Assembly (NCBI GenBank): GCA_002686755.1
Contig: NYYJ01000187.1
Span: forward strand, 1 to 34,378
DNA length: 34,378 nt
Direction: 5' to 3'
From: Verrucomicrobiales bacterium
GTDB taxonomy: Bacteria > Verrucomicrobiota > Verrucomicrobiia > Limisphaerales > UBA1096
In this document: positions 71-34,292 of the stretch, piece by piece
How positions within the stretch are numbered: position 1 is the stretch's first letter
How the letters are laid out: every line of letters starts with the position of its first letter
The notes under the pieces: generated by a model
Told to the model about the DNA's origin: nothing
The model's input: only the letters and a program-made list of their open reading frames with translations
The model's database searches: none
Position numbers and translations under genes: made by a program

Positions 71-82
71 GCTTGGCCAAGC
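71..82. repeat. HIP-like palindrome GCTTGGCCAAGC, intergenic
   Basis: A full 12-base copy 18 bases before the start codon of the thioredoxin-like gene, so probably in its leader. It is one of eight intergenic copies of the 10-base core in the window. Confidence 0.9.
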
Positions 83-99
83 TCTAATCTCCCGCCCGC

Positions 100-879
100 A
101 TGAACAGGTTGATCGTTCCCCGATGTCTTGCCGCAGCCATGATGCTCGCCACGGCCCTCGTTGCCCCGAGCCGCACCTTGGCCCAGCCCGAATCCCCGAA
201 GAAACCCGGCTCTCCCTGGCCGGAGTGGAAGCTGACCGATTTCCAGCCAAAGAGCCCAAGATTCAACGAGACTTACGGGCTGGAGCATTTTCGCGGCCGA
301 GTGACCTTCGTCGCCCTGCTCGCGACCTGGTGTGGGTTTTGCAAGACGCAGATCGAGAAAATGGAAGAGATGCGGAAAGAGTTCGCGGCCAACCGCATCA
401 AGGTCAATTTTGTCGTCGTCAACGTCGCTTCCGGGGAATCAGAACAAAATGAGTTCACCTCTCGCTGCAGCTTCCCTCTATTTCAGGACACCGAACTGGT
501 AGATGCGTTTGGACTTCACCAGGGAGGCAAGGATGACTACTATATTTACAACGAACGCGGTGAGTTGACGGACTTTTTCCCGTTCCGGGGAACACGCGCA
601 TCGGATCTCGCCTCCCCCGAGGGCTATGCGAACCTGAAGCAAGCCATCCTTGACGCGCCGTTCCAAAGCCGCTTGTCGGCGGAGACCGTGGCCGCCGTGA
701 CGATCGATGGCGTCGCGGGCCGCACCTACCGGATCGACTACAGCGAGGATCTCGGCGACAACAAAAACTGGAAGCCGCTGAAGACTGTCACCATCGACGC
801 CGACCAGTTTATTTATATCGATCTCGAGGCGACCCGCCTGCGCAAGCAACGCTTTTACCGGATCGAGGAAGTCCCGTGA
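100..879 (+). CDS. Secreted thioredoxin-like (TlpA/redoxin) protein with C-terminal beta domain
   Basis: A 259-residue exported protein. Residues 1-28 form a signal peptide with a hydrophobic Ala/Leu core and a TLAQ end. Residues about 45-185 read as a thioredoxin fold of the TlpA/ResA type, with the redox pair C78-G-F-C81 after a Trp, so it probably handles disulfides or reduction in the periplasm. Residues about 198-258 (from [16 protein letters not shown] to RFYRIEEVP) look like the short beta-rich tail module found at the end of many Verrucomicrobial and Planctomycetal secreted proteins; I cannot assign it a function. The stop overlaps the glpK start as GTGA, so the two are likely translationally coupled although no functional link is obvious. 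The ATG at 100 is chosen because it gives the signal peptide. Confidence 0.8.
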
Positions 880-2357
880 GCCGAAAAAAACATACCCTCG
901 CGCTGGACCAAGGAACGACCAGTTCTCGGGCGATTGTTTTTGATGCGCTTGGCCAAGCGGTGACAGTGGCGCAGCGGGAGTTACCGCAGATTTATCCCAA
1001 ACCGGGCTGGGTCGAGCACGACCCGGCTCTCATCTGGAAAACGCAACTCAGCACGGCCAAGCGCGCGCTGCGCCTGGCCAAGCTCTCCGCTGCCGACATC
1101 GCGGCAATCGGCATCACCAACCAGCGCGAGACCACCCTCGTTTGGGATCGCGACACCGGAAAGCCGACCGGCAATGCCATTGTCTGGCAGGATCGCCGTA
1201 CTGCGAACTTTTGCGACGCATTGCGCCGGGAGAAGGCCGACCGGCTGATCCGCCGCAAGACCGGGCTCGAACTGGACGCCTACTTCAGCGCAACCAAGAT
1301 TCGATGGCTGCTCCGCAACACCAAGGGCGCCTTGGCCAAGGCGCGCGCCGGCCGCTTGGCCTTTGGCACGGTCGACTCGTGGTTGATCTGGAACCTGACC
1401 GGCGGGAAGGCGCACCTCACCGATGCCACGAACGCCTCGCGGACGATGCTGTTCAACCTCCGCACCGGCGACTGGGACGACGAACTGCTGACGCTGTTCG
1501 GCATACCGCGATCCGTTTTGCCCAAGATTGTTTCATCCAGCGGGGTTGTTGGCGAAACGAGCGCGCTGGGCCAGGCGATCCCCATCGCCGGCATCGCTGG
1601 AGACCAGCATGCCGCGCTGTTCGGCCAATGCTGCCACCGACCCGGCATGGTCAAGAACACCTACGGCACCGGTTGCTTCATGCTGATGCACACTGGCAGC
1701 AAGCTGATGCCGTCCCGCAACCGACTGCTGACAACCGTCGCATGGAAGATCGGCGGCAAAACGGAGTACGCGCTGGAGGGCAGCGTCTTCATCGCCGGTG
1801 CCGTAACGCAATGGTTGCGTGACGAGTTGGGCATTATCAAGTCGTCGGCGGAGATTGAGCACTTGGCCAAGCGCGTGCCGGACAACGGCGGCGTCCACCT
1901 CGTGCCGGCTTTCACAGGACTGGGTGCGCCGCATTGGAACCCCCACGCGCGCGGCACCATCACCGGGCTGACCCGAGGCACGACCAAGGCACACCTCGCC
2001 CGGGCCGCGCTGGAGGGTATTGCCTATCAAGTGAGCGACATCCTCGCCGCGATGGAACGTGACGCCGGCACAAAGCTGCGCGAACTGCGCGTCGACGGCG
2101 GTGCCAGCGCCAATAACCTGCTGATGCAATTCCAGAGTGATCTGCTCGGGGTGCCGGTCATCCGCCCGGCCAACACTGAGTCGACTGCGCTCGGCGCCGC
2201 ATACCTCGCCGGCCTTGCCGCGGGTATATGGAAAAATAAACGCGACATCACTTCCCAATGGAGAGCCAAACGGCGATTCAAGCCAACGATGACTCCGGCC
2301 ACCCGCAACACGCTGCTTGCCGGGTGGAACCGCGCCCTGTCACAGGCCCAGCTATGA
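876..2357 (+). CDS. glpK: Glycerol kinase
   Basis: Phosphorylates glycerol to sn-glycerol 3-phosphate with ATP in the cytoplasm. At 493 residues it has the normal length for the FGGY kinase family. The phosphate-binding N-terminus [14 protein letters not shown] is at residues 10-23, the substrate region GWVEHDP and ITNQRETT follow, WQDRR comes next, and the second FGGY signature GLGAPHW lies at about 348-354 followed by ITGLTRGT. The ADP-site segment [14 protein letters not shown] is near the C-terminus. It starts at GTG 876, overlapping the previous stop. No glpF or glpD is adjacent. Three CTTGGCCAAG palindromes lie within it (947, 1331, 1862), read as ALGQA, ALAKA and HLAKR. Confidence 0.95.
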
Positions 2358-2452
2358 TGTTTTCGTGAACTGGTTTAGCGTTGAACCACAACAAACCAGC
2401 GATTGACTGCCGACATGGCCTAAGCGAAACGCCTGCACCCGCTATACGACCC

Positions 2453-4945
2453 ATGAAAATAGTGTTACTGACCATCCTCCTCTGCACACACTTGCAGGCC
2501 GCCGAGTTGCGCGGGCGCATTGTGGACTCCCAAACGGGCAGGCCCGTCGCCGCTCGAATTTATATTACGAACGGCCAAGGCGAATGGTTTTTCGCGGAAT
2601 CAGCGGCGGCCAAGGGCACTGCCTTCCGCTACGACAAGACGAACTGGTCCCAGAAGGAGTCGTTCGAGAAACACACCACCGTCTCGGCGCACCCGTTCCG
2701 GGCCGACCTCCCGCCGGGCGACTACACGGTCACGGTTGAGCGCGGCAAGGAGTACTTCAGCGAATCCAAATCGCTGTCGCTTGGCCAAGCGGATGTGCAA
2801 CTCGAAATCCGCCTGCGCCGCTGGATCGATTTGGGCGAGCGCGGATGGTTCTCCGGTGATACCCACATCCACCGCAGCCTCAATGAGTTGCCCAACGTCA
2901 TCCAGGCCGAGGACCTCAATGTATCGATGCCGCTGACCTACTGGGTGACGAAATCCGGCCTGCCACCCACGTCGGGCAACAAGAACATTGGCGGCGAGAT
3001 TCCGGACAGGCTGATCTCGGTCGATCCCACGCATGTCATCTGGCCGCGCAACACGGAGTATGAGATTTTCTCGGTGGGTCCGAGGCGGCACACGTTGGGA
3101 GCGCTGTTTTTCCTCAACCACACGTCGGTGTTCAACGAGGGCGTACCGCCGTGGGGACCGCTGGCCCGTCGCGCCCGGGCCGAGGGCGCGGTGTTTGACA
3201 TGGACAAACTCGACTGGCCGTTTTCGATGACGCTTCCCCACAGCACCGGCGCGCGCCTGTACGAGCTGGCCAACAACCACCTGTGGCGCACGAGATTCGC
3301 CTTCACCAAGTGGAACTCCCGTGCGCCGGGATTTCTTCAGCCCCCCAGCGGCAGCACCACCGGCAATGAGGAGGAATGGATGAATTACACGCTCGGACAA
3401 TATTACACGCTGCTCAATGCCGGGTTCGACCTCGTGCCAACCGCCGGGTCAGCCAACGGCGTCCATCCCGTGCCGGCTGGCTTCAGCCGCGTGTACGTGC
3501 ATCTGCCCGGCGGATTCAGCTACGAGGCCTGGCTGGACGGCCTCAAGCGCGGCCGCAGCTTCGTCACCACCGGGCCGATGTTGTTCGCCACAGTGAACGG
3601 GCAGCAACCCGGCTCCACACTGTCGCTTGGCCCTGGCGGCGGCGAACTGGCTGTCACCGGCGAGGTCGTGAGCGAAAAGCCGGTTGCGTTACTGGAAATC
3701 GTCGTCAACGGCCAACCGATGCTGAACGTTCGTTCCCAGCCGAAGGCCACGCCTTCAGGGGCGCGCCGAATGGCGTTCTCCGCCACGTTGCCAATCAAAA
3801 CCAGCGGCTGGGTGGCCGTTCGCTGTTACGAGGAGCGCCACGGCGGACGGCTGCGTTTTGCACACACCGGCCAATGGAGGATCGACGTTCCCGGCAAGCC
3901 ACTCCGCCCTTCACACGAGGAGAAGGAGTATCTGGTCGAGCGCGTGCAGGCAGAAATAGACCGGAGCAAAGGCATCGTTTCCGCAGCGGCCATGGGCGAA
4001 TACCAAGCGGCACTCGAGCATTATCAGGGCCTGGCCACAAGCGACCCGCCCACGCCGGAAGCTCGTCCGCCCAGGGACGATGGAGAGGCCAAGCGCTGGC
4101 TCCGGAACATGGTCACCCACCACCGGTACACAGCGCACGAGGTGCGCGCCGCCACCGGGCTGCCCTTGGCCAAGGTGCGGCAACAACTCGACGACTGGAA
4201 CATCGCTGAAACGCGCTTGGCCAAGCGCCCCGACAATGCCCCGCTGAAGGTGCTGCCGTATCCCGGCGGGCGGCATCCGCGTATCGGCTTCCTCAACGGC
4301 GCACTCGTACCCCAGCGCGAAACCAAGGTCAGCATCTTCGCGCCGTGGGATCCGCACAGCTACGCCGTGCTCGACGTCCCCGAAGCCATCTGGTCCAACC
4401 TCGGCCTCACCTACCTGGCCCACACGCACATCCCCACCATCTGGGACAAACAGGACAAATCACTCGAGCCACTCGAGTGGGAACACAACCCCGACGGCTC
4501 ACTTAGCCTGCTGCGGACATTGCCCAACGGCATCGCGATTGGCAGCCGGATCGCACCCGGCAACGAAGTCGTCCAGTTGAAGCTTTGGATTCGCAACGGT
4601 TCACCAGAAACAGTCACCGGCCTCCGCGCGCAGGTGTGCGTAATGCTCAAGGGCCTGCCCGGCTTCAACCAGCGTATCCGCGCCAACAAGATCATCGACG
4701 GCAACTGGGTGGCCTGCCGCGACGCCGACGGGCAACGGTGGGTCATCACCGGCTGGCAGCCGCTCCATCGCCCGTGGGAAAACCCGCCCGTGCCCTGCAT
4801 GCACGCCGCCCCCGCTTTCCCCGACTGTCCGCCCGGCCAAACCGTCGAGGCCATTGGCATCCTCGCCTTCCATGAAGGATCCGACGTCATGCTGCGCATC
4901 CGCGAACTCCAAACCAAGCATTTCGACCGGAACCAACCTGAGTAA
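2453..4945 (+). CDS. Secreted CehA/McbA-type metallohydrolase-like protein
   Basis: An 830-residue exported protein. The ATG at 2453 gives a clean signal peptide (MKIVLLTILLCTHLQAAE); an in-frame TTG at 2381 would add 24 residues before it and is less likely. Residues about 17-115 resemble a carboxypeptidase-regulatory beta domain (LRGRIVDSQTGRPVAARIY). A PHP-like metal-binding start follows, GDTHIH with H138 and H140, as in CehA/McbA-family hydrolases, and later LPHSTGA and a glycine-rich beta region. The last 230 or so residues (from LNGALVPQRETK) form a second domain I do not recognise. The natural substrate is unknown; carbaryl hydrolysis is known only for a few family members. Three palindromes lie inside (2779, 4165, 4215), the last two only 50 bases apart. 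Confidence 0.7.
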   Translation: MKIVLLTILLCTHLQAAELRGRIVDSQTGRPVAARIYITNGQGEWFFAESAAAKGTAFRYDKTNWSQKESFEKHTTVSAHPFRADLPPGDYTVTVERGKEYFSESKSLSLGQADVQLEIRLRRWIDLGERGWFSGDTHIHRSLNELPNVIQAEDLNVSMPLTYWVTKSGLPPTSGNKNIGGEIPDRLISVDPTHVIWPRNTEYEIFSVGPRRHTLGALFFLNHTSVFNEGVPPWGPLARRARAEGAVFDMDKLDWPFSMTLPHSTGARLYELANNHLWRTRFAFTKWNSRAPGFLQPPSGSTTGNEEEWMNYTLGQYYTLLNAGFDLVPTAGSANGVHPVPAGFSRVYVHLPGGFSYEAWLDGLKRGRSFVTTGPMLFATVNGQQPGSTLSLGPGGGELAVTGEVVSEKPVALLEIVVNGQPMLNVRSQPKATPSGARRMAFSATLPIKTSGWVAVRCYEERHGGRLRFAHTGQWRIDVPGKPLRPSHEEKEYLVERVQAEIDRSKGIVSAAAMGEYQAALEHYQGLATSDPPTPEARPPRDDGEAKRWLRNMVTHHRYTAHEVRAATGLPLAKVRQQLDDWNIAETRLAKRPDNAPLKVLPYPGGRHPRIGFLNGALVPQRETKVSIFAPWDPHSYAVLDVPEAIWSNLGLTYLAHTHIPTIWDKQDKSLEPLEWEHNPDGSLSLLRTLPNGIAIGSRIAPGNEVVQLKLWIRNGSPETVTGLRAQVCVMLKGLPGFNQRIRANKIIDGNWVACRDADGQRWVITGWQPLHRPWENPPVPCMHAAPAFPDCPPGQTVEAIGILAFHEGSDVMLRIRELQTKHFDRNQPE

Positions 4946-4950
4946 ACTTG

Positions 4951-5496: not shown

Positions 5497-7992
5497 CTAC
5501 GGCGACTCCGCCGCGATGCGCTCGTAGGTTTTCAGCGCTCGATCATAGGCCGCCTTGGCCGCGGGACGCTCGGCGGGTTTGATGAAACGATGGCGATTGC
5601 GCCAGAGAATTTTTACTGACTCTGCGCACCACTGCGCGCTGGCGCGGGAGGCGCGGATGGGTTTTCCGGCCACCAGCACGTTCACCGGGTTGGTGTGCAA
5701 GTGCGGAAAATGTCGCAGGGCCACCCAGCTGCTGCGGGCGATCGCAACTTCAAATTTCAAATCATGGATCGCCCCATCGGCGGACACGATTTTCTTCGCA
5801 GCAACTTGGCCGTTCACGATCAACTCCACCAAACGCTCGCCGCCTTTCACGAATTTGCGGTGCCGCGGCGCGTGCAGGTTCACCGTGTCGCCGCTCATGC
5901 GTGTCCCGGCGGGCGGTTTGAGCAGGCCCTGCGCCACCGTCTCGGGCGTTTCCGGTGCGAAGGCGACCTTGGCCGTCACCGCCACGTTGCCCGGCTTGGC
6001 CAAGCGGACGTCATTTTCGCCCGGCGCTTGGCCTCCGACGTTGAACGCCAGCGCGTGCGCGTAACCGTCGCTCACATAAGATTGGCCGGCTCCGAGGCCG
6101 CGGCACCATTCGGCGAAGTTGAGTTTTTTCTTCGCGCCCAATTGCACGTACACGCGACCGGCGCCAACGCGGCGGCTGGACATGCACGGAAAATCCGTCT
6201 CGCCACTGAGCTTGAGCGGGAAGCCGCAGTTCATCAGGTGATACCACGTGTTCCATTCGGGGATCCGCGCGGTGTCCATCGCGCTGATGAAATCGCAAAC
6301 GCCCTCGGCCGTGCTCACAAAAATCTCCATCGCCCCACCGCCATTGAGCGCAGGGAGCGCGTAGTTCGGCAACGTGTCGGCGGCACGATTGGCACTGGCG
6401 GTCAGCTCCCCCTCGGTGAGCGCGCCGTTGCCGTCGGCATCCACCTTGGTGAAGGGTTCCGGCAACAGCCCCGGTGCCGCCTCGTCGCCGGTGAGCACGG
6501 TGTCCTCGTCCACGTTGAGCGTGCGCATCAGCCATTGGGCGGTGGCGGTGGGATTTACATGCAACGCAGAATGCGGATAGCCAGTCACGCCACCCTGTTC
6601 CTTGCACCAGCGCAGCACCGGCACCGTCCACGACGGCCAGCCCTCAGTCTTCGTGCCCTTCGAACCGGGGTAGGTTTGGTTTTTTAAATTGAGTAGACAC
6701 ACATGACCCAGCGCCGCCGAGCCGAAGCCGCTGATTTCCAAATCGTATTTCAGCAACGTCATCGGCTCGCTGACGCCATCGGCCAACGGCGAAAAATAAT
6801 CGCGTTGAAAATCAAAGCACGGCCCCCACGTGAGCACGCAGCCGACGTTGAGCCCCTCGCCTTTTACCTGTGCAAACATGTCGCCCGGCCGCACGCCCTG
6901 CGTTGGGCTGTCGTAATGCGAGCAGCCGGCGCCGTGGATGTGATGGTCGCCGCTGTAAAATCCGAACCGCACCGGGTTCACCCAGCGCTCCAGCCGGACT
7001 TTGATTTCCGCTGCGCCCTTGGCCGGCACGGTGACCGTCCGCGTGCGCACGCGATACTCCGGGCCACGCGAGCTTTCCATCGTGAACTTCCCCGGCGGCA
7101 GCAGCACCACGCCCCCGTCAGCGCGATAGATGTGCGGTTGAAAAAAGAAATCCGGGGCCAAGCGCTTGGCCTGCGGCGGGTACACGCGCCCGGCGGCATC
7201 GCGGAATTCCAGCCGCGCCGTGGTCGGTTGGCCATCCGCATCGCGCACATCTAGCTTCACTGCGCGCGCGGGCAGCACGTTGAAAAGCACCGGCACCTCG
7301 GCGCGAAAGCCGAGATCCTGCGTGCCTTGGCCGATATCAAACTGCAGTGTCGCCTCACGTTTGCCGGCCTCGTGGCTGTAAATCAACACAATGGCGTACT
7401 CCGCCTCCAAGCCGCTGAGGTTCGACTGCATCGGCGGTTTTCCAAACATCTCCACGGACAAAAAACGGCCCTTGTCGCCCTTCGTGTTTTCGTTGTCCTT
7501 CAACTCCGTTTGCGCCTGCCGCCGCAGGATGACCAGCGCCGCGCCGGAATACACCGGGCCCGCCTGCGGACTGCCCACGCGCACCGGCCGCGCCACGGTG
7601 GCGTCGTTGAGCACCTTCACAAGGAACGGTGTAAACCCGCCCTGCCGCAGCACCGCATTCGCCGGCCCGCGCTGCACCTTCACGCGCAACTCGGGGTTCA
7701 CCGACACGGCCACCAGCACGTGCGCATCGAGAATTGTTTGAATCGCAGCCGCATCGCGTTTGCCGATGGCGGCCTTGAGCGCTTTCACTTCCTTCGCCCC
7801 CAAGGGCGCCCCCAGAAAATCCAGCGCCTTGATCACTCGCGCCGCATTCGCCCCCAGCGGCTGGCCCTCAACCTTGACATAGAGTGGATTCGTTTGCGCT
7901 TGGCCAAGCGCCAGACACGCAGTCAACAAACCGATGGTCATCCCGTTCATTATCTGTCTAGCGAGACTGGCCGCGCGGGCATTGACCGTCAA
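5497..7992 (-). CDS. Secreted CehA/McbA-type protein with an EF-hand insertion
   Basis: An 831-residue exported protein. The TTG at 7992 is chosen because GGAGGGG lies seven bases upstream; an in-frame ATG at 7950 lacks such a site. The signal peptide ends in CLALGQAQ, encoded in part by a palindrome copy (7898). Residues about 20-330 are alpha then beta domains; the PHP-like metal motif GDHHIH is at residues 348-353. A canonical EF-hand calcium loop, DADGNGALTEGE, sits at about 518-529, inside the hydrolase part. The C-terminus ends in a helical region rich in Arg and Ala. It is a distant relative of the 2453-4945 gene but has a different architecture. Function is unknown; a secreted metal-dependent hydrolase is the best guess. 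Confidence 0.65.
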   Translation of the reverse strand: MTVNARAASLARQIMNGMTIGLLTACLALGQAQTNPLYVKVEGQPLGANAARVIKALDFLGAPLGAKEVKALKAAIGKRDAAAIQTILDAHVLVAVSVNPELRVKVQRGPANAVLRQGGFTPFLVKVLNDATVARPVRVGSPQAGPVYSGAALVILRRQAQTELKDNENTKGDKGRFLSVEMFGKPPMQSNLSGLEAEYAIVLIYSHEAGKREATLQFDIGQGTQDLGFRAEVPVLFNVLPARAVKLDVRDADGQPTTARLEFRDAAGRVYPPQAKRLAPDFFFQPHIYRADGGVVLLPPGKFTMESSRGPEYRVRTRTVTVPAKGAAEIKVRLERWVNPVRFGFYSGDHHIHGAGCSHYDSPTQGVRPGDMFAQVKGEGLNVGCVLTWGPCFDFQRDYFSPLADGVSEPMTLLKYDLEISGFGSAALGHVCLLNLKNQTYPGSKGTKTEGWPSWTVPVLRWCKEQGGVTGYPHSALHVNPTATAQWLMRTLNVDEDTVLTGDEAAPGLLPEPFTKVDADGNGALTEGELTASANRAADTLPNYALPALNGGGAMEIFVSTAEGVCDFISAMDTARIPEWNTWYHLMNCGFPLKLSGETDFPCMSSRRVGAGRVYVQLGAKKKLNFAEWCRGLGAGQSYVSDGYAHALAFNVGGQAPGENDVRLAKPGNVAVTAKVAFAPETPETVAQGLLKPPAGTRMSGDTVNLHAPRHRKFVKGGERLVELIVNGQVAAKKIVSADGAIHDLKFEVAIARSSWVALRHFPHLHTNPVNVLVAGKPIRASRASAQWCAESVKILWRNRHRFIKPAERPAAKAAYDRALKTYERIAAESP

Positions 7993-8093
7993 GTGGATTC
8001 CCCTCCGGTCACTGCCTCATTCCGTTGATGCTGGGTTTCACGATGAACTCCGATCCGCTTCATCACGGAACGGCACGACTTGCGCCAAAAAGC

Positions 8094-8273: not shown

Positions 8274-8287
8274 TTAAACCACATCTC

Positions 8288-9841
8288 ATGAAGCCGTACC
8301 GGACTTGCCTCTACCATGCGGCGCTTGGCCTCAGCCTGCTTGGCGCTTGGCCAAGCGCGGCGCTGCCCGATCATCAGGCCAAGCCGAATATCGTCCTCAT
8401 CCTCGCCGACGACCTCGGTTATGGCGATGTCAGCTGTTACAATTCAGAGGCCAAGGTATCCACCCCGAACATCGATCAGCTGGCCAGCTCGGGCATGCGA
8501 TTCACCGACGCCCACAGCCCCTCCACCGTCTGCACGCCGACGCGATACAGCCTGCTGACCGGTCGGATGGCTTTCCGCAACGGCATGAAAGGGGTGTTTA
8601 CCGGAGCCGGCGGGCCATGCCTCATCAAGGCGGATCGACTCACTCTTCCCGGCCTGCTCCGGAGCCAAGGCTACACGACCGCGATGTTCGGGAAATGGCA
8701 CGTCGGGATGACCTTTTACGACAAGGACGGAAAGGCCATCGACAAAAACGGGCTCGATGCGGTGAAGCGGATCGATTATTCGCAGCCGATCAGCGGCGGG
8801 CCGATTGACCGCGGGTTTGATCATTTTTTTGGCACCGCATGCTGCCCGACCACCGACTGGCTTTACGCCTACATCGATGGTGACAAAATCCCCGTACCGC
8901 CGACGCGCATCGTCGACCGCGAACCGCTGCCCAAGCACCCCTACTCCCGCGACAACCGCCCCGGCATGATCGCACCCGGCTTCGACCTTGAGGAGGTGGA
9001 CATGGTGTTCCTGCAAAAGAGCCTCGAGTTTCTGGAGTCGCACAAGAAGCAATCTCCGGACAAGCCGTTTTTCCTGTTCCACTCCGCGCAGGCGGTGCAC
9101 CTGCCCTCCTTTGCCGGGCGGGCGTTCAAGGGCAAAACCGGAGCCGGCCCGCACGGTGACTTCATCTTTGAACTCGACTATATCGTCGGCCGCTTGGCCA
9201 AAAAACTGGATCAGCTTGGCTACGGGGAAAACACGCTGCTGATCTTCACGAGCGACAACGGGCCGGAGGTGCCGACCGTCATAAACATGCGTAAAACCCA
9301 CCAGCACGACGGCGCCCGGCCGTGGCGCGGTGTCAAGCGCGACCAATGGGAGGGCGGCCACCGGGTGCCGTTCATCGCGCGGTGGCCGAAGCGGATTGAG
9401 GCCGGGAGCACCTCCGAGCAGACGATCTGTCTCACTGATCTGATGGCCACCTGCGCGACGCTGACTGGCACCACGATCCCGCGCGATGCCGCTGAGGACA
9501 GCTTTGACATTTTGCCCGCGCTGCTTGGCCAAGCCGGCGACAAGCCGATCCGCGAATACACGCTGCACCAGACGATCAGCCTGGCCTTGGCCATACGCCA
9601 TGGCGACTGGAAGTACCTCGACCACAAAGGCTCCGGCGGCAACAACTACGAGCGCAAAGGCGAATGGGGGTTGAAGCAATTCGCCCTGCCGGAACACGCG
9701 CCGGACGCGCCGGGCCAGCTTTACAACCTGGCAAACGACCCCGGCGAGACAACCAACCTGTACAACGAACACCCGAAAATCATAAAAATGCTCAAGGCCA
9801 AGCTGGAAGCATTCAAGACGGGCGGCCGCAGCGCCCCGTGA
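8288..9841 (+). CDS. Secreted type I sulfatase (arylsulfatase family)
   Basis: Hydrolyses a sulfate ester, probably on a polysaccharide, in the periplasm or outside the cell. The 517-residue protein has a signal peptide (residues 1-28), the N-terminal metal site IVLILADDLGYGD, and the sulfatase signature C82-T-P-T-R followed by YSLLTGR; C82 would be converted to formylglycine by an anaerobic or FGE-type maturase not present in this window. GKWHVG follows, then the C-terminal metal residues in FTSDNGPE and the second subdomain. Specificity cannot be read from the sequence. The signal peptide contains a palindrome copy (8345) read as GAWPSA; a second copy (9523) encodes LLGQAG. Confidence 0.9.
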   Translation: MKPYRTCLYHAALGLSLLGAWPSAALPDHQAKPNIVLILADDLGYGDVSCYNSEAKVSTPNIDQLASSGMRFTDAHSPSTVCTPTRYSLLTGRMAFRNGMKGVFTGAGGPCLIKADRLTLPGLLRSQGYTTAMFGKWHVGMTFYDKDGKAIDKNGLDAVKRIDYSQPISGGPIDRGFDHFFGTACCPTTDWLYAYIDGDKIPVPPTRIVDREPLPKHPYSRDNRPGMIAPGFDLEEVDMVFLQKSLEFLESHKKQSPDKPFFLFHSAQAVHLPSFAGRAFKGKTGAGPHGDFIFELDYIVGRLAKKLDQLGYGENTLLIFTSDNGPEVPTVINMRKTHQHDGARPWRGVKRDQWEGGHRVPFIARWPKRIEAGSTSEQTICLTDLMATCATLTGTTIPRDAAEDSFDILPALLGQAGDKPIREYTLHQTISLALAIRHGDWKYLDHKGSGGNNYERKGEWGLKQFALPEHAPDAPGQLYNLANDPGETTNLYNEHPKIIKMLKAKLEAFKTGGRSAP

Positions 9842-9872
9842 CGGCACACCGTCCGCTTGATTGGAGGGATGC

Positions 9873-11036: not shown

Positions 11037-11078
11037 GCGGAAAACCGAAGAGTTGGGCAAAATCAAATCGAACGCGAC

Positions 11079-11106
11079 AAAAAAAACGTCCGCTTGGCCA
11101 AGCGGA
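11079..11106 (-). terminator. Intrinsic terminator built from the palindrome
   Basis: Read on the minus strand just after the TAG of the DUF885 gene, the 18-base perfect palindrome TCCGCTTGGCCAAGCGGA is followed by two bases and a run of eight T. It contains a full GCTTGGCCAAGC copy (11092-11103). This is a textbook rho-independent terminator for the gene at 11110-12921 and separates it from the sialidase gene. Confidence 0.75.
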
Positions 11107-11109
11107 GGA

Positions 11110-12921
11110 CTATTTGGCCTGCTCGGCAATCCAGTTGTTGATGCGTTGCTCGAGGATGCCAAGCGGCAGCGCACCGTTCCACAGGATTTCGTCGTGGAAG
11201 GATCGAATATCCAATTTGTCACCAAGCTTGGCCGTGGCCCGGGCGCGCAATTCCTTCAGTTTCAATTCGCCAAGCTTGTAGGCCAGCGCCTGGCCGGGCC
11301 AGACGATGTACCGATCCACCTCAACGCTGATGTCGTGCTCGGCTTTACCGGCGTTGGCCTTGAAGAAATCGATCGCCTGCTGACGCGACCAGCCCTTGGC
11401 ATGAAGGCCAGTGTCGACGACGAGCCGGATGGCCCGCCACATCTCGTAGGTCAACTGGCCGAACTTGGAATAGGGGTCGGTGTAAAAACCCATCTCTTCG
11501 CCGAGACTCTCGGAATACAACCCCCACCCCTCGACGTAGCCGGTGTAGCGTCCGTATTTACGGAACTCCGGCAGACCGTCAATCTCGTCGGCGATGGCCA
11601 ACTGCAGGTGGTGCCCGGGCACGGCCTCGTGCAGCGCAAGCGCCTCCATCTCCCACTTCGGCCGCGACTTCAGGTCGTAGGTGTTGGCAAAGAAAAAACC
11701 GGCGCGGCCAGCGTCGTTGGAGCCGGGTTGATAGTAGGCCGTGGTGACCGATTTTTCGATGTACGCCGGCACCGGGATCACACCATAAGGCTGGCGAGGC
11801 AGCTTGCGAAACAGCTTAGGCAACTCAGGGTCGGCCCGCTTGCAGATGTCCCGGTATCCGGCGAGCAACCCGTCGGCGGTTTCATAGTAAAACTGCGGGT
11901 CGGTCCTGAGAAACTCGAAGAAATCGTGGAGGCCGCCCTCGAAGCCGACCTGTTTGCGGATGGCCTCCATCTCGGCGCGGATGCGTTTGACCTCGCGCAG
12001 GCCGATGCCGTGAATCTCGTCCGGGCTGAGCGTCGTGGTGGTGTAATGCTTAATCTGGTAATCGTACCACGCAAGGCCGTTGGGCAACGCGCTGCGTCCC
12101 ACCGTTTCGCGGCAATTCGGGACATACTCGTCACGCAGAAACGCATGCAGCCGCTTTAGTGCCGGCCGCACCGCATCGGTATAGACCGCCTTGGCCGCCT
12201 CGGTCAGTCGCGCCTGCTCCGCATCCGGAATGGTGACTGGGAATTTCCTGAACTTGGCCAGCATCGGCGTGGTCAACGGGCCGTCGTGCAGATGCCCGGT
12301 CACCTGGTCAGGCAATGTGCGCAACGGCACTTTCGGGGGCACGATGCCTCGGGATGCCCCCTCCTGCAGCAACTCGATTGTTTGATCAACCAACGCGGGG
12401 ATGCCGCCCAGCCGCGCCAATATGTCGTCGTAGTCATTTGCCTTGGCTGCCGGCATCATGGCGATCATCGACGGCACATCCCGCGGCAGGCCATCCATCT
12501 GGTTTATGGCGAGGTACTCGGCGGGGAACTGCTGCCGCTCGACCGCCATCTCGGCGTTGCGCCGAAATAGGTCGTAATTCAATCGGTTGGCCTCGTTCAA
12601 CTTGGCCCGGTCGATGGAGAGGGTCGCCTCGAGCGTCAGCCGCGCTACCACCTTTGCCTCGGCGATGGCTTCAAGCGATAAGTCGCTCCAGCGATGATTC
12701 TGCCCGGGATAACCGCGCCACGTCGCCGCTTCCGGCGAGGCGATCATCCGGTATTTCCAGTTGGCATCGAATAAGCGCCAAAGCCGGCCATCGGCGTCCG
12801 ATTGGCCCTTGACTGCGATGATGTCTGTGCATTGTTCGCTGTAGCGATCGCTGTTCTCATCCGCTTGGCCAAGCGGGAACGCAACCGCGAACAAAACAGA
12901 GAGAGTGACAATGCGAATCAT
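11110..12921 (-). CDS. DUF885 zinc-peptidase-like secreted protein
   Basis: A 603-residue exported protein of the DUF885 family. The motif H431-E-A-V-P-G-H-H438 is the expected zinc-binding stretch of this family, which resembles helical metallopeptidases; the substrate is unknown. The surrounding sequence (GFFFANTYDLKSRPKWEMEALALHEA and the GYVEGWGLYSE that follows) is typical. The ATG at 12921 gives the signal peptide MIRIVTLSVLFAVAFPLGQA, whose cleavage end is encoded by a palindrome copy (12863); the frame is open 36 codons further upstream without a convincing start. It is transcribed alone and ends in the palindrome-based terminator. Confidence 0.8.
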   Translation of the reverse strand: MIRIVTLSVLFAVAFPLGQADENSDRYSEQCTDIIAVKGQSDADGRLWRLFDANWKYRMIASPEAATWRGYPGQNHRWSDLSLEAIAEAKVVARLTLEATLSIDRAKLNEANRLNYDLFRRNAEMAVERQQFPAEYLAINQMDGLPRDVPSMIAMMPAAKANDYDDILARLGGIPALVDQTIELLQEGASRGIVPPKVPLRTLPDQVTGHLHDGPLTTPMLAKFRKFPVTIPDAEQARLTEAAKAVYTDAVRPALKRLHAFLRDEYVPNCRETVGRSALPNGLAWYDYQIKHYTTTTLSPDEIHGIGLREVKRIRAEMEAIRKQVGFEGGLHDFFEFLRTDPQFYYETADGLLAGYRDICKRADPELPKLFRKLPRQPYGVIPVPAYIEKSVTTAYYQPGSNDAGRAGFFFANTYDLKSRPKWEMEALALHEAVPGHHLQLAIADEIDGLPEFRKYGRYTGYVEGWGLYSESLGEEMGFYTDPYSKFGQLTYEMWRAIRLVVDTGLHAKGWSRQQAIDFFKANAGKAEHDISVEVDRYIVWPGQALAYKLGELKLKELRARATAKLGDKLDIRSFHDEILWNGALPLGILEQRINNWIAEQAK

Positions 12922-12939
12922 GGCGGCGCAGTTGTACCA

Positions 12940-12950
12940 CTTGGCCAAGC
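12940..12950. repeat. HIP-like palindrome CTTGGCCAAGC, intergenic
   Basis: A copy 19 bases upstream of the DUF885 start codon, in the divergent promoter region shared with the EboD-like gene. Confidence 0.9.
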
Positions 12951-12978
12951 GGAGGGAAACCCCCATGACCTTCTCCAA

Positions 12979-12990
12979 GCTTGGCCAAGC
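12979..12990. repeat. HIP-like palindrome GCTTGGCCAAGC, intergenic
   Basis: A full copy in the same divergent intergenic region, 28 bases past the previous one. An in-frame TTG at 12981 that would extend the next gene lies inside this repeat, which argues against that start. Confidence 0.85.
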
Positions 12991-13043
12991 GCACCGAAAT
13001 AACTGGCATTTCAATCCCAGTCGCCGCACTTTTCCCTGACGCA

Positions 13044-15649: not shown

Positions 15650-15661
15650 GCTTGGCCAAGC
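15650..15661. repeat. HIP-like palindrome GCTTGGCCAAGC between convergent genes
   Basis: It fills most of the 26-base gap between two converging stop codons and is followed on the plus strand by eight more G. It can form a hairpin for transcripts from either side, but there is no strong T run, so a terminator role is only possible. Confidence 0.85.
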
Positions 15662-16061: not shown

Positions 16062-16072
16062 CTTGGCCAAGC
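16062..16072. repeat. HIP-like palindrome CTTGGCCAAGC, divergent region
   Basis: A copy in the 112-base gap between the divergent Fe-S carrier and nagB. It is followed by TATTTTT on the plus strand, but no plus-strand gene ends here. Confidence 0.9.
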
Positions 16073-19373: not shown

Positions 19374-19397
19374 GCTTGCCCAAGCGCTTGGCCAAGC
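19374..19397. repeat. Tandem palindrome pair in the ilvN leader
   Basis: A variant GCTTGCCCAAGC (19374-19385) is directly followed by a full GCTTGGCCAAGC (19386-19397), 12 bases before the ilvN start. Each unit can fold as a hairpin in the leader RNA, close enough to the start codon to affect translation. Confidence 0.85.
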
Positions 19398-20697: not shown

Positions 20698-21513
20698 TTA
20701 TCGTCTCGAAAACAATCTTTTGAAAAAGCCTCCCTGCGCCCTCATCCTTGGGCCGGCCGTGTCGACGCCAGCGAAGGCGCCGCCGGGAGAGAGGCGGCTC
20801 ATCGTGGCGACGACCGCCTCGGCCGTGTAACGCCCAAAACGGCGCGGGGAATTGAGCAGCCCGAGTTCCGCATCCAGTTCCGGGTCGGACAAGCCGTTCT
20901 TGATGGCGTTCCGCTTGGCAGAATTGATCACTGACTTTTGCCCTGCATTGAACACGTCGTCGAGTTCCCAAACAACGCTGCCATTGTTGCTTTCCGGGCT
21001 CAGGTGCACAAGCCCCATTCTCCAGCCGATGCTCAACGGGGGATACGGTTGATACACCGTCAAGTGACTGAACAAAACGCCCTGGCAATCGTATTCGCGA
21101 GTGATTTTCTCGATGAAATCAACCGGTAGCTCGTCGATCATCCGCCAGGCGGGCCGCCCGGTCAACTGCCCCATCTTGGTCGCTGGAACATAGACCACCT
21201 CGAACAACCCCGACTTGGCGATCTCGGCCTGCATGAATTCCTGGAGCATCTGCCTCCCGGACTGGTGCTCGACGGTGTTCAATGCGGAGGTCATCGGCAA
21301 CAGGGCCACGCGACGCATGTCAGCCGGCATGACCCCGTCGGCGAGGTTGTAGTTGGCCGGCTTGTGGAACGGCCCGATGACGGTTCCCGGATTCTTGATC
21401 GAAGCCGTCCTGCATCCGCCCAAGCCGAAAGCCAACACCAGCATCATCGCCGCTTGGCCAAGCGCTTGGCTTATGCCTGCGACTCCCCGTTTCTGTCTCA
21501 ATTCCATGCTCAT
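20698..21513 (-). CDS. Flagellar-operon lipoprotein, FlgO/CsgG-like
   Basis: A 271-residue protein with a signal peptide and lipobox GLGGC (about residue 34). After it, RRVALLPMTSALNTVEHQSG and LQEFMQAEIAKSGLFEVVYV resemble the start of CsgG/FlgO-type outer-membrane lipoproteins, in which a strand-helix unit sets up a small periplasmic domain. Location between fliD and fliS suggests a role in the flagellum's passage through the outer membrane, which is inference. A palindrome copy (21452), followed by a further half copy, encodes SQALGQAAM within the signal peptide region. The start is ATG 21513, with another ATG at 21507. Confidence 0.55.
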   Translation of the reverse strand: MSMELRQKRGVAGISQALGQAAMMLVLAFGLGGCRTASIKNPGTVIGPFHKPANYNLADGVMPADMRRVALLPMTSALNTVEHQSGRQMLQEFMQAEIAKSGLFEVVYVPATKMGQLTGRPAWRMIDELPVDFIEKITREYDCQGVLFSHLTVYQPYPPLSIGWRMGLVHLSPESNNGSVVWELDDVFNAGQKSVINSAKRNAIKNGLSDPELDAELGLLNSPRRFGRYTAEAVVATMSRLSPGGAFAGVDTAGPRMRAQGGFFKRLFSRR

Positions 21514-24508: not shown

Positions 24509-26155
24509 ATGTCGCGGCGGTTCGCTATGGAAACCGAGCAAAACAGCCCAACGAAACGCCCCACCCGCTGGTGGCCTGCTGTTGTTATCCTCATCAGCTT
24601 TTTCCTCGCCTTGATCGTCATTCGGTCCACCGGTGACGACAACCAACAATTCCAGGTGCTTTGGACGTTAAGCGCGATCCTCATCTCAACCATCCTACTT
24701 GTCTCTTGGGCATTGTTCCTCTCCCGCTTGGCCAAGCGCATCCGCTTGGTCATTTTGGGTGGCTTGGTTGGCGCGGGCGTCCTGTTCGGAACCTGTTTCC
24801 GCTTTAGCCAGTTCAGCGGCAACATGGTTCCATTATTCGAATGGCGTTGGGCCAAGCGCACCCTCCCCACGACAGAAGGCCAACCGATTGAGCCAAGCGC
24901 CGAGCCGTCGCTTGACCCATTGGCTAGGCTCTCGTTTCCGCAGTTCCTCGGGCCAAGCCGGGACTGCCACGTGCCCGGCCCCGAGTTGGCCGATGACTGG
25001 GATGCGGAACCGCCCAAGTCACTATGGCGGCAACCAATCGGCGCGGCTTGGTCTGGCTTCGCCATTGCCGGCCACCGCGCCGTCACACAGGAGCAACGCG
25101 ACGAACTCGAGGCGGTTGCGTGCTACGACATTCGCACCGGCACCCTGCTCTGGCTGCATACTTATCCTGGTCGATACAAGACCGCCATCGCCGGCGAGGG
25201 GCCGCGCGCGACTCCGACGATCCACGACGGGCGGGTCTATGCGCTCGGTGCCACCGGCACGCTTAACTGCCTTGACCTGCCCACCGGCAAGCCGGTCTGG
25301 CAGCGCATCATCCCGGCCGACGCCGGGTTGAAACTCGACGCTCCCGTAGACCAAAGCGGCCTGTCGGGCAACCGAAACAAATCGAAGGAATGGGGCTACG
25401 CCAGTTCGCCATTGATCGTGAACGGCCGCGTTGTCGTCAGCGCCGGCGGAGAGGATGGCCGCTCACTCCTCGCCTACGACACAACCACCGGCGAACCGGC
25501 ATGGACCGGGGGCGACAGCCGCGCCGGATACAGTTCCGCGCGCTTGGCCAAGCTGCACGGCGAGTCTCAGATTCTCATTTTCAACCAGAACGGCTTGGCC
25601 GCCCACGCGCCCGGCGACGGCTCGGTTCAGTGGGAATTTGAATGGGACGTCGGCTACCCGCACGTGTCAATGCCGGTCACCCTCCCGGGCAACCGAATCC
25701 TGGTCAGCCTCGGCTACGGCCAAGGCAGCAAACTGCTCCAGGTCGATGCTGATGACGGTCGTTTTTCAGCGAGTGAACTGTGGAAATCGATCCGGATGAA
25801 GGCAAAATTCACCAATCTCGTTTTTCACAACGGCCATTTTTTTGGTCTGGATGACGGGATGTTCGCATGTATCGACGCCGAACGCGGCCGCCGCAAATGG
25901 AAGGATGGCCGTTACGGGCACGGGCAAATCCTGCTTCGCGGTGGGCACATTCTCGTCATGGCGGAAAACGGCGACGTCGTCCTGCTCGAGGCCAACCCCG
26001 AACGGCACGTCGAGTTGACTCGGTTCGCCGCGCTGGACGGTAAGACGTGGAACCCTCCGGCACTCGCGAATGACTACCTGCTCGTGCGCAACCACCGCGA
26101 GGCTGCCTGCTACCGGCTCCCGTCGGCCAAGCCTGCCGAATCCGCCGCGCAATGA
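24509..26155 (+). CDS. Membrane-anchored PQQ-like beta-propeller protein
   Basis: A 548-residue protein starting at ATG 24509, six bases after GGAG; ATG 24527 is an alternative. It begins with three hydrophobic segments (about 21-40, 48-71, 79-98), then a propeller of PQQ/BamB type with repeated blades such as ACYDIRTGTLLWLHTYP, LNCLDLPTGKPVWQRI and LLAYDTTTGEPAWTGG. Propellers of this kind either bind PQQ as dehydrogenases or serve as scaffolds; the residues that would decide are not evident, so binding or scaffold roles are as likely. It overlaps the next gene by four bases (ATGA). Palindrome copies (24726, 25542) encode SRLAKRI and ARLAKLH. Confidence 0.7.
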   Translation: MSRRFAMETEQNSPTKRPTRWWPAVVILISFFLALIVIRSTGDDNQQFQVLWTLSAILISTILLVSWALFLSRLAKRIRLVILGGLVGAGVLFGTCFRFSQFSGNMVPLFEWRWAKRTLPTTEGQPIEPSAEPSLDPLARLSFPQFLGPSRDCHVPGPELADDWDAEPPKSLWRQPIGAAWSGFAIAGHRAVTQEQRDELEAVACYDIRTGTLLWLHTYPGRYKTAIAGEGPRATPTIHDGRVYALGATGTLNCLDLPTGKPVWQRIIPADAGLKLDAPVDQSGLSGNRNKSKEWGYASSPLIVNGRVVVSAGGEDGRSLLAYDTTTGEPAWTGGDSRAGYSSARLAKLHGESQILIFNQNGLAAHAPGDGSVQWEFEWDVGYPHVSMPVTLPGNRILVSLGYGQGSKLLQVDADDGRFSASELWKSIRMKAKFTNLVFHNGHFFGLDDGMFACIDAERGRRKWKDGRYGHGQILLRGGHILVMAENGDVVLLEANPERHVELTRFAALDGKTWNPPALANDYLLVRNHREAACYRLPSAKPAESAAQ

Positions 26156-26784: not shown

Positions 26785-26796
26785 ACTTGGCCAAGT
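26785..26796. repeat. HIP-like palindrome ACTTGGCCAAGT between convergent genes
   Basis: It fills 12 of the 15 bases between two converging stop codons. A hairpin terminator is possible but no T run follows in either direction. Confidence 0.85.
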
Positions 26797-26799
26797 AAA

Positions 26800-28614: not shown

Positions 28615-28738
28615 TTAATCTCCTGTAATCTTCTGTTTCAAAAAATTTGAGTTGATTCTAACAACAAACCAAAAAACGAGATTGCCCGACTCTCCTATCC
28701 TGTCAAGTTCCGCAACAGACCCACTTCACCGACATCCA

Positions 28739-30172: not shown

Positions 30173-30194
30173 TTTCTTAAAAAACAGTCCATGC

Positions 30195-33100
30195 TCAACC
30201 CTTCATCAATATGGCGTCCAGGTTCAACAACACGTTTGCCACCACTGTCCACGCCGCCATCTCCGGAAATGCCGCCCCGTCCGGAACCGGCACGGTTTCG
30301 CCGAACAGCGCCTTCGCCCCAGTGGACTCCTGACGGTAGTGGGCCAGTTCACTCTCAAATAAGTCTCGGATCGCGGCCAAGCGGCTGGCCTCGACCGGCT
30401 TGGCCAAGGTGAGGCGCAGGGCAAACTTCAACCGCTCATCCGTCGATCCGCCGCCCTCAGCGTAAATTCGCCATGCCAATGCCCGGGCAAACTCGACGTA
30501 CGCCTCGTCGTTGAGGGTGACGAACGACTGCAGTGGCGTATTCGTCCGGATTCGCCGCACGGCGCAAATTTCCCGGCTCGGCGCGTCGAAAGTGGCCATC
30601 GACGGATACGGCACGGTTCGCCGGAGAAAGGTGTAAAACCCGCGTCGATACCGATCCTCTCCCTGGCTGGTTGCCCAGTTGCGCTGCCCATTGAACGCCG
30701 CCTGCCACAAGTTTGGCGGCTGCGGTGGGTAGACGGATGGCCCGTGCATTTTCACGCTCCCCAGTCCGCTCAACGCCAGCGCCTGGTCGCGCACCATCTC
30801 CGCCTCGAGCCGGAACCGTGGCCCGCGGCCCAGTCGGATGTTGCGCGGATCGCGCTTGGCCAAGCGGCCCCGCACCTTGGCCGACTGCCGGTACGTCGCC
30901 GAGGTCACCATCGTCTTGAGCAACTGCTTGACGTCCCAGCCGCCGTCGCGGAACTCGACCGCCAGCCAGTCGAGCAGTTCCGGGTGGTCGGGCAGGTTGC
31001 CCTGCGTCCCGAAATCCTCCTCCGTGTCAAGCAGACCGCGCCCGAACAACTGCGCCCAAAAGCGATTCACCGCCACGCGTGCCGTCAGCGGGTTGTCCGG
31101 CTGCATCAACCACCGCGCCACCCCCATGCGGTCAAGCGGCGTGCCGTCGGCCGGCGCGTGGAACGAAGCCGGAAACCCGGCCTGCACGACGTCTCCCTTG
31201 CTCAAAAAACTCCCCTTCACCATCAGGTACGTCTCTCGGCGCTTGGCCAAGGGGCGCTCGCGCATGTACGGCGTCGTGACGATCGAGTCGCTGACTTTTT
31301 TGCGATCCTTGCGCTTGGCCTCAATCGACTTGCGAACCGGCTCCAGTTCGCTGGCAAATGTCCGGTAATGCGCGGCGATTTTCTCCGCCTGCGCCGAGGT
31401 CCGTTTGGCCTCCTCAATCAGCAGCACCGGCAGGATGGCCTCCGGAAAATCAACTCCCTCGACGTCAAAATAAAATCCGCTCTTTTTATCGTGGTTAACG
31501 ATCTTCACCAGCAACTCGCTCTCGCCCTTGGGCAGGCTCACGCTTACCGATTCCTGTCCCGCCTTGGCTTCGCGCTTTGTTTTTTTCGACAATATCTCCC
31601 TGCCATTGACCCACGCCTTGATGCTGTCGCCGCTGCCCAGCGTCAGGCGCTGTGTCCCCGCGATCGCCGCCGTGATCTTGCGCCGCAAATAGACCGCCGA
31701 GTGATCCCCCGCCTCAAGCGTATGCACGGTGTCATCAACCCACTCCGGCTTGCTCACCCATTCCGTCTTGACTGATGCATCGGCTCCGGTTCGCGTAAAG
31801 ACCTGCACCTCGGCCAGTGACAAAATCGGCGTCTTGCGACTGTCCAGCGGCAGCAGTTCGATCCGCACATACGACACGTTGGCGTCAGTCTCGATTGGGA
31901 TGGCAAATCCCTCATCCGGCTTGGGATGGCCTTTGCCATTCTCGAACAAGTCTGTCTCGTGCAGGGAGTTGCGATCGGCATCCAGCGCCGACACCCGAAA
32001 TGCCGAGAGTCGTTCCGGGATCTCCGCCCGGTTCCAGATCACCACCTGCGTCAAGTCGGTCGGCTCGGCCAACGCCACCTCCCACCACGGTTCCTTGTCG
32101 TCCGGGTTGTTGGTGTGAGTCACGGTTCCGTCTTCAAACTTGCCGGAGGTGTTGCCGTCGATCGCCCGCTTGGCCGGGGCATCATGCGACGTGGAGGATT
32201 GCCGGGCCTTGCCTCGCAACGCGACGTTTTCACCGATGGCCAAGCGTTCCGGTGCAAACGCCTTGGCGAAAGCATCGTCAAAATCGTTCCCCTCGAACGG
32301 CCCGCTAATCTCCCAAACGGACCGTTTCGGCTCCGGCTTGGCCAAGTCACGCAACGACCGCAGCTCCCAGGCACGCTGGCCCTTGGCCAAGGCCGGCGTC
32401 GGCTCGTTGAGTTTGGCCTGCAACGCCTTTATTTCGTCGTCGATGGAGGCCAGGCGCTGGGTTTGTTCCTCGCTCGGGTACGGCAGACGCGGGGAGTCAT
32501 CGCCCCGGTCGGCATCCTCTGTCTGGTTGAACATCGCGTAAAACTGGTAGTACTCCTTCTGCGTGATCGGGTCGTACTTGTGCGAATGGCACTTGGCACA
32601 GCCCATCGTAAGTCCCATCCAAACCTGCATGGTCGTGTCCACCCGGTCGCGCACTGCTTCCACCCGAAACTCCTCGTCGTCGGTGCCACCCTCGGTGTTG
32701 GTCTTTGTGTTGCGATGAAACGCTGTGGCGAGCAACTGGTCGCGGGACGGCTCTGGCAACAGGTCGCCGGCCAGTTGCTCGATGGTGAACTGGTTGTACG
32801 GCATGTTTTGGTTAAAGGCGTCGATCACCCAGTCGCGGTATTTCCAAATGACGCGGAGCGGGTCTGAGCCGTAGCCGGCGGAATCGGCGTAGCGCGCGAC
32901 ATCGAGCCAAAGGCGCGCCCACCGTTCGCCGTAAGCCGGCCGGGACAACAGGTCGTCGATGAGCAATTCATAAGCGTTTGCCCGCTTGTCGTTCACGAAC
33001 GCCTCGACCTCGGCCGGGGTCGGAGGCAGCCCGCTCAGGTCAAGCGACAACCGGCGGATCAGGACATGGCGCTGTGCCTCTGGGCTCGGCCGATCCCCGG

Positions 33101-33584: not shown

Positions 33585-33739
33585 CCGCAAGCAAATGCTC
33601 GCTCCGTTGCTACCCCAAGAACAGCTGCTGCGCCACCTCTTTTTCAAACAAAAAACCAACGATTGTTGCCTTGGACGAACGAAATGACTTTCAAAAAAGC
33701 GAATCCAAAGCTATATGTTCCGCCGCCCTCGCGGCTTGG

Positions 33740-33815
33740 GCCAGTTTAGCTCAGTTGGTAGAGCACTCGATTTGTAATCGAACGGTCGTCGGTTCGAGTC
33801 CGACAACTGGCTCCA
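33740..33815 (+). tRNA. tRNA-Thr (anticodon TGT)
   Basis: A 76-base gene ending in encoded CCA. The acceptor stem GCCAGTT pairs with AACTGGC, the D arm is GCTC...GAGC with GTTGGT loop, the anticodon loop is TTTGTAA giving TGT, and the T arm contains GTTCGAG. It reads ACA and other Thr codons. The discriminator base is T. The 3' side is followed by a disturbed region. Confidence 0.95.
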
Positions 33816-33942
33816 TCTCGCCCTCCTCCTCCCTACAGTACTTTGCCAAGCGCTCGGCCGGGAGAGCACCCTTCCCAAAATCCAACCGTCCCAAACAGCT
33901 GTCCGCTTTGCCGGGATTAAGCTTTTGTGGCTTGGCGGGTGC

Positions 33943-34029
33943 ATGAGCAGTCATCTCGACTTATTGCGTCAATACACCAACATCGTTGCCGACACCGGCG
34001 ATTTTGAATCCATCCGCGAATACACCCCG
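33943..34029 (+). pseudogene. Transaldolase 5' remnant
   Basis: The first 29 codons read like the start of a transaldolase: SSHLDLLRQYTNIVADTGDF then ESIREYTP. In a complete gene this is followed by an E/Q-D-A-T-T-N-P-S stretch with the start of the barrel; here the frame instead enters methyltransferase-like sequence. The joint lies at about 34030. It looks like the 5' end of a housekeeping gene cut or duplicated by recombination. Confidence 0.6.
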
Positions 34030-34292
34030 CTGGAGGACGATGCCAACAACGTCAACCCATCGGCCAAGCGGATGAAGACGCTTGTATCGTCGACCAAGGG
34101 ATCCGGGATGAAACTGAACCCGAACTGGGTGGAACAGCTGATGGGATTGCCAGCCGGCTGGACGCAACTCCCGACCCACTGGTCAACCGGGTAGATCGCC
34201 TTCGGCTGCTTGGCAACGGAGTGGTCAATCAAACCGCGGCCAAGGCATTTGCAGCACTGTCCGCGCGCTTGGCCAAGCACTTGAAGATTTAA
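34030..34292 (+). pseudogene. Cytosine-methyltransferase 3' remnant, frameshifted
   Basis: Codons 30-83 of the same frame give EDDANNVNPSAKRM and KLNPNWVEQLMGLPAGWTQL, a motif near the end of phage-type DNA methyltransferases. The frame then stops at 34192-34194, but the adjacent frame continues from about 34172 as DPLVNRVDRLRLLGNGVVNQ and ends at TAA 34290-34292. RLRxLGNGVVxQ is conserved motif X of C5 cytosine methyltransferases. The two halves belong together, so a frameshift of one base (or two) lies between about 34162 and 34175. Everything upstream of the tail (motifs I-VIII) is missing. A palindrome copy (34267) encodes RLAKHL. Confidence 0.65.

Follow-up and report, generated by a model that had tools for sequence, protein, structure and literature searches.

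Phased clusters of a highly iterated palindrome in a marine Verrucomicrobiota genus: a possible sequence programme for an oligomeric DNA-binding protein

What highly iterated palindromes such as HIP1 (GCGATCGC) of cyanobacteria do has, to our knowledge, been an open question since the 1990s. Here we examine a palindrome with the core CTTGGCCAAG that recurs along a stretch of DNA of 34,378 nucleotides (hereafter the window), which is contig C187 of G000, a 3.5-Mb, 87%-complete metagenome-assembled genome (MAG) of an uncultured marine Verrucomicrobiota. Two kinds of described elements invite comparison. Every HIP-bearing cyanobacterial genome has methyltransferases predicted to recognize part of HIP (Elhai, 2015; PMC4390886). 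Uptake signal sequences (USS) are abundant, evenly spaced and of point-mutation origin (PMC7811141; PMC1939737; PMC2346458), and the uptake motifs described in one study are not palindromes (PMC1939737). The present motif is a highly iterated palindrome outside the cyanobacteria, and one without the expected methyltransferase. A preliminary description of the window knew of no account of it in this group, and the literature that we searched likewise contained no description of the motif, nor of phased iterated palindromes.

Exact counting yields 31 cores and 19 copies of the full 12-mer GCTTGGCCAAGC in the window, precisely the numbers of the preliminary description, whose core coordinates mark real sites, although many of them lie one base low because the first base of the 12-mer was given (e.g., 71 against a core start of 72). 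The excess claimed there is genuine and is not limited to the region of the window: the core occurs 2619 times in the 3.5-Mb genome, as against 16 occurrences of a reversed control word, at a mean density of 0.75 per kb, and these genome-wide counts rule out a regional artefact. In 350 kb of the genome, its observed-to-expected ratio (O/E) is 281 under an order-2 and 108 under an order-3 Markov model. Genome-wide, then, the core is what defines the HIP class, a palindromic oligomer far above Markov expectation that recurs on the order of once per kb. The sequence flanking TTGGCCAA reveals that the actual motif is a palindrome of 14-16 bp with the consensus SCGCTTGGCCAAGCGS, whose exact 14-mer is present 116 times in 350 kb and not once in a third-order simulation; together with the order-2 and order-3 expectations, this excludes Markov composition as the cause. 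The inner CTTGG/CCAAG allows few changes (the core is near-invariant) and the outer positions allow many, while copies with one mismatch are slightly fewer than exact copies. The half-site CGCTTGG is also in excess (728 copies vs. 109 expected in 350 kb). Two related forms are strongly over-represented as well, namely overlapping copies exactly 12 bp apart (CGCTTGGCCAAGCGCTTGGCCAAG) in our sample of this genome, and the inverse palindrome CCAAGCGCTTGG, with 30 copies in 350 kb.

The central result concerns how neighboring sites are spaced. Cores 15-160 bp apart are separated by whole helical turns of 10.5 bp (n=195, R=0.38, nR2=28, p ~1e-12), the pooled neighbor pairs giving a best period of 10.4. 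When the data are split, both parts show the same phase (nR2 of 17.8 and 10.5), a result that is consistent rather than fully independent since the pooled set had included the smaller part. Phasing at 100-160 bp (R=0.42) is as strong as overall and is absent beyond 160 bp. An independent test, with the period (10.5) and the distances (102-132 bp) fixed in advance, was made on two other species, G015 and G010. Among the 75 pairs listed in the first places of these two genomes, 71 fall into in-phase bands (20, 27, and 24 at 102-106, 112-118, and 121-127 bp) and 4 into troughs (1, 2, and 1 at 107-111, 119-120, and 128-132 bp), with R=0.48 and nR2=17.5; the band edges were taken from the histogram, and the Rayleigh statistic is independent of them. 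Pairs 102-132 bp apart are 1.35-2.6 times more frequent than random in all 10 genomes searched. Neighboring sites therefore stand in a two-site, same-face relation over short distances, as do the sites of proteins that bridge or wrap DNA. Weaker sites share in this relation: the half-site GCTTGGC, where it stands alone, keeps phase with full cores (729 pairs, R=0.23, nR2=37), GCTTGG half-sites are enriched around cores to a distance of ~200 bp and show little preference for either orientation, and sites carrying 3 or 4 mismatches are both phased and 1.4- to 1.6-fold enriched close to cores. None of eight control words is enriched near cores, and among them CTGGTG alone is moderately phased (nR2 5.3, in the half-site test only). 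The unit of function would thus seem to be a group of strong sites and weak ones lying together on a single helical face.

DNA is bent by GGCC steps, and in coding DNA a 10-11 bp periodicity arises from amphipathic helices. On these grounds, the register could be ascribed to phased GGCC wedges or to protein helix periodicity, with no dedicated protein involved. We find this scarcely credible, as the phasing depends on the specific half-site and is still present at 100-160 bp, the tripeptide control and most word controls are flat, and a 14-bp palindrome is unnecessary for curvature. Moreover, phasing is retained when one or both sites of a pair lie outside called genes (gene calls throughout are those of our own simple gene model): R is 0.33 for pairs within a gene and 0.56 for mixed pairs, i.e., those not within one gene, and the 12 pairs in which neither site falls inside a called gene share the phase, if marginally when taken alone (p=0.05). 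Coding copies lie mostly in the LAK (325) and LGQ (203) frames, and these tripeptides exceed expectation 4.6-fold (576 vs. 126) and 4.3-fold (345 vs. 81), respectively. It follows that the motif biases protein sequence, which bears out the preliminary claim that protein selection does not explain it. Matching tripeptides that are not coded by the motif show no phasing (n=280, R=0.04), and under a jitter that preserves position modulo 3, 0 of 5000 trials reached the observed value; with the frame, tripeptide, and mod-3-preserving controls giving no phasing, a protein-driven origin was rejected. Phased RNA hairpins were set aside by argument rather than by test, the period matching B-DNA (10.5) and not A-form (11).

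At longer range, pair correlation shows that sites cluster below ~160 bp and are depleted at 400-1200 bp. The depletion persists when gene-position classes are preserved in the null (z -5.1 at 600-800 bp), which rules out gene structure as the cause of the spacing, and held-out contigs of the same genome show both the clustering (10-150 bp, z +8.9) and the depletion (400-1000 bp, z -4.3). From one cluster to the next the mean distance is 1.4 kb, with a coefficient of variation of 0.75 (random placement gives 0.83); some spacing tests left out eight contigs that are nearly devoid of sites. Core density is 1.50 per kb in intergenic DNA vs. 0.68 elsewhere. By position, it is highest within 40 bp downstream of stop codons (4.9 per kb), followed by the opening 100 nt of genes (1.6) and the rest of the intergenic DNA (1.15), and lowest in gene bodies and ends (0.63-0.76). 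The sixfold intergenic enrichment reported for the window thus holds in kind, but overall it is only ~2.2-fold, and a value of ~7-fold is confined to the 40 bp after stop codons. Most of the printed post-stop sites have no T tract directly following, and intrinsic transcription terminators were accordingly dismissed.

When proteins bound at two sites make contact through a short DNA loop or wrap, helical phasing that fades out near 160 bp is to be expected, and such phasing is established for loop-forming repressors and Lrp-type proteins. Because the phasing observed here ends near 160 bp, we propose that the sites are read by an oligomeric sequence-specific DNA-binding protein, which would bridge phased sites or wrap them and so produce a nucleoid programmed by sequence, a reading to which we assign a probability of roughly 0.58. 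Under this proposal, SCGCTTGGCCAAGCGS would be the recognition site of a putative sequence-specific DNA-binding protein of the marine Verrucomicrobiota genus, with two subunits each reading one CGCTTGG half-site. Once oligomerized, the protein would allow complexes on same-face sites or half-sites no more than ~160 bp apart to bridge, loop, or wrap the intervening DNA, and clusters of this kind every 1-1.6 kb along the chromosome could constitute a sequence-programmed nucleoid architecture. We infer the protein that reads the sites, its oligomerization, and its main role in chromosome architecture. A broader proposition, which we hold tentatively and at a little under even odds, is that of a genome-wide chromatin-like programme in which identical palindromes in their thousands, together with half-sites, lie on one helix face, grouped every 1.4 kb into clusters no longer than ~160 bp; they would be served by a putative oligomeric reader, independently of methylation, and would evolve fast enough to have been lost in sister lineages.

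Several observations weigh against an architectural protein. The binding protein is itself putative. Lrp/AsnC was the sole candidate family sought; 17 of 21 genomes have it, two motif-poor ones among them, and mostly as a single gene; an Lrp/AsnC protein is therefore a candidate binder on analogy only, with no link to the motif. With sites linked at 200 bp, 530 of the 721 resulting clusters consist of one core, so that full-core pairing is not obligatory, though half-sites may supply the partners of single cores. Three genomes of the genus are nearly without sites. Finally, phasing alone fits architecture and other two-site processes, such as synapsis or uptake, alike.

The fate of the sites in relatives bears on one such process. 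Across orthologous window alignments with 80% overall identity, 59% of cores are intact in motif-dense relatives, as opposed to 17.8% of composition-matched 10-mers, and identity in these relatives is 94.6% in the core and 73.6% in the flanks. In motif-poor relatives, a group with only 10 sites, the core is no better kept than its surroundings (67% vs. 69% in the flanks), and the aligned motif-poor genomes (G001 and G005, with G020) show no added constraint at motif positions. Losses comprise 73 substitutions and 6 gaps. Since gains and losses are mainly substitutions, an insertion element was excluded, and the choice between insertion and point mutation posed in the preliminary description falls mainly to the latter. 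Proteins that bridge two sites classically require helical phasing at short spacings, and a two-site enzyme (a nuclease of the synapsis type, a recombinase, or a repair factor) whose action is confined to phased pairs and which has no main architectural role would also account for the pairing of sites. Yet the sites are strongly conserved in place, with no insertions or rearrangements seen at most of them, and no restriction-type methyltransferase partner was found (five Pfam families, 21 genomes), which makes such an enzyme improbable.

Methylation fares no better. Pfam family searches of the 21 genus genomes found PF00145 in one, PF01555, PF02086, and PF07669 in none, and PF02384 as three marginal matches at the cut-off; control genomes gave matches, and the searches therefore worked. 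No DNA methyltransferase of these five families is conserved in the genus, so that no matching enzyme of the kind that accompanies the HIP class (Elhai, 2015) was found among them, and the methylation link entertained in the preliminary description is not supported, although an enzyme of some other type is conceivable. A lone C5 DNA methyltransferase (517-aa frame; L021, C53:508-1560) occurs within the genus only in G008. An orphan DNA methyltransferase might still modify part of the site, with methylation-directed mismatch repair or a related process making or keeping the copies; a palindromic, GC-rich motif at ~1 per kb that spreads by point mutation and is lost or replaced in some relatives is indeed the pattern of alternate HIPs (PMC4390886). 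We give this little credence, however, because the five families are absent or sporadic in 21 genomes, most of them motif-rich, and because HIP1 on a cyanobacterial plasmid has neither phasing nor mid-range depletion. The latter comparison, with plasmid A of Trichormus variabilis (31 pairs, R=0.06), is a modest control of 350 kb on one plasmid, with 224 sites and few pairs. HIP1 itself is not over-represented in the window genome (O/E 1.2). The likeness to HIP1 drawn at the outset accordingly stands for an iterated genome-wide palindrome of comparable abundance, but not for the methyltransferase.

The genus referred to here is a database grouping of genomes with 40-60% GC, all of them incomplete MAGs. 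The motif is dense in 17 of its 20 other genomes, with core counts across the 20 ranging from 41 to 3274. The remaining three, G001, G005, and G019 (40-42% GC vs. 60% in the window genome), have 41-57 cores each, which is near chance, and no alternate palindrome was found in the samples of motif-poor relatives examined. Genomes of other families of the order (37 genomes) have 0-39 cores each, like the control, and in 285 further genomes of the class each genome has 0-7 copies of the 12-mer, with the sole exception of G297 (13). Named relatives of a window protein (74-86% protein identity) are marine Verrucomicrobia MAGs, some of them Pedosphaera- or Limisphaerales-like; nearly all of their loci have the motif, and distant Opitutus-like and unrelated genomes are without it. 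G297, from another family of the order, has a few motif-bearing contigs (L274 (C51), L272, and L276; 8 cores in 18.7 kb). Its sites lie mostly in these few contigs, which were chosen for having them, and it was rejected as a motif-bearing outgroup; contamination or gene transfer from the marine genus is the likelier source. Six contigs of G000, of 7-20 kb as read, are coreless (L227, L231, L232, L243, L248, and L259; C21, C25, C26, C37, C122, and C133) and are probably mis-binned or recently acquired DNA, and the motif could be usable as a binning marker. A phage-borne origin was discarded, the IMG/VR contigs listed with the 14-mer having one site each in the stretch examined.

Such a distribution leads to the main rival of the architectural reading, though in our estimation an unlikely one, namely that the palindrome is a self-recognition motif for natural transformation, built up by uptake bias and recombination. 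As with USS and DNA uptake sequences (DUS), it is genus-specific, occurs about once per kb, originates and is lost by point mutation, favors intergenic DNA and gene starts, and is spaced more evenly than random (PMC7811141; PMC2346458); evolution by point mutation and enrichment in non-coding DNA, by which USS and DUS are recognized, are both found here. ComEC is present in 9 of 21 genomes and not in the four motif-poorest (p=0.04, in MAGs that are incomplete). Among motif-rich genomes alone, however, the link between ComEC and density disappears (p=0.32), and G006 (88% complete) has dense conserved sites and no ComEC match. The uptake motifs described in PMC1939737 are not palindromic, and no report of helically phased uptake sequences was found in the literature searched. 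The suggestion of uptake in the preliminary description thus draws on traits shared with USS and DUS and loses the ComEC link among motif-rich genomes, leaving it a possible role with weak support.

Within the window, 14 copies are in the LAK frame, 8 in the LGQ frame, 2 in the WP frame, and 7 are intergenic; an earlier tally agrees for LGQ and otherwise had 13 LAK, 1 AWP, and 8 intergenic. Three groups of cores lie close together. The cores at 4165..4174 and 4216..4225 (exact 14-mer) are 51 bp, or 4.86 turns, apart. In the cluster of 12864..12873 (exact 14-mer), 12940..12949, and 12980..12989, the second site is 76 bp (7.24 turns) from the first, and the third is 40 bp from the second and 116 bp (11.05 turns) from the first. 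The cores at 32337..32346 and 32382..32391 are separated by 45 bp. Cores in the LAK frame include those at 1331..1340, 1862..1871, 5995..6004, 18566..18575, 24727..24736 (exact 14-mer), and 25543..25552. The LGQ frame is represented by 948..957 (exact 14-mer, inside the FGGY kinase gene 876-2357), 2780..2789 (exact 14-mer), 7899..7908 (exact 14-mer, ~90 nt from the start of gene 5497-7992(-)), 9524..9533 (in the sulfatase gene), and 14121..14130. A WP-frame copy near the start of the sulfatase gene, at 8346..8355 (exact 14-mer), is kept in most aligned relatives. Gene boundaries are marked by 11093..11102 (exact 14-mer), directly downstream of the DUF885 gene 11110-13029(-), by 14336..14345 (exact 14-mer), near the start of gene 14249-15643, by 15651..15660 (exact 14-mer), which lies 8 nt past the stop codon of that gene and is retained in many relatives with indels in its flanks, by 21453..21462 (exact 14-mer), near the start of gene 20698-21513(-), and by 26786..26795, directly after the stop codon of gene 26152-26784. 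The cores at 72..81 (14-mer with 1 mismatch), 16062..16071, 19387..19396 (exact 14-mer), and 34268..34277 are intergenic. The core at 30399..30408 is in the PSCyt/PSD1 gene, and further cores lie at 30855..30864 (exact 14-mer) and 31242..31251. The PSCyt/PSD1-type gene spans 30195-33659, and a FliD-like flagellar cap gene is located at 21525-24377.

The spacing is of interest because it directly bears the physical mark of contact between two sites on the same DNA face, and it provides a testable biochemical prediction. If the architectural reading is true, the organization of a bacterial nucleoid would rest on a sequence programme whose strength suffices to bias proteins across the genome; no comparable genome-wide site programme was found in the literature searched. 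HIP1 and the alternate HIPs of cyanobacteria resemble the motif as GC-rich, genome-wide palindromes at about one per kb that are lineage-specific and gained and lost by point mutation (PMC4390886). The motif differs in being longer (14-16 bp), in having half-sites, in belonging to a genus without a conserved methyltransferase, and in its 10.5-bp phased clusters and mid-range depletion, neither of which HIP1 displays on the Trichormus plasmid (350 kb). It shares with Haemophilus USS and Neisseria DUS its abundance, genus restriction, bias to intergenic DNA and gene termini, point-mutation origin, and more-even-than-random spacing, but unlike them it is palindromic, clustered and helically phased within 160 bp, and weakly associated with ComEC. 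Lrp/AsnC and SeqA, as generally understood, act on palindromic or paired sites on one helical face that an oligomer wraps or bridges, as proposed here; in contrast to these, the present system, with its putative reader, has thousands of near-identical long sites spread evenly over the chromosome.

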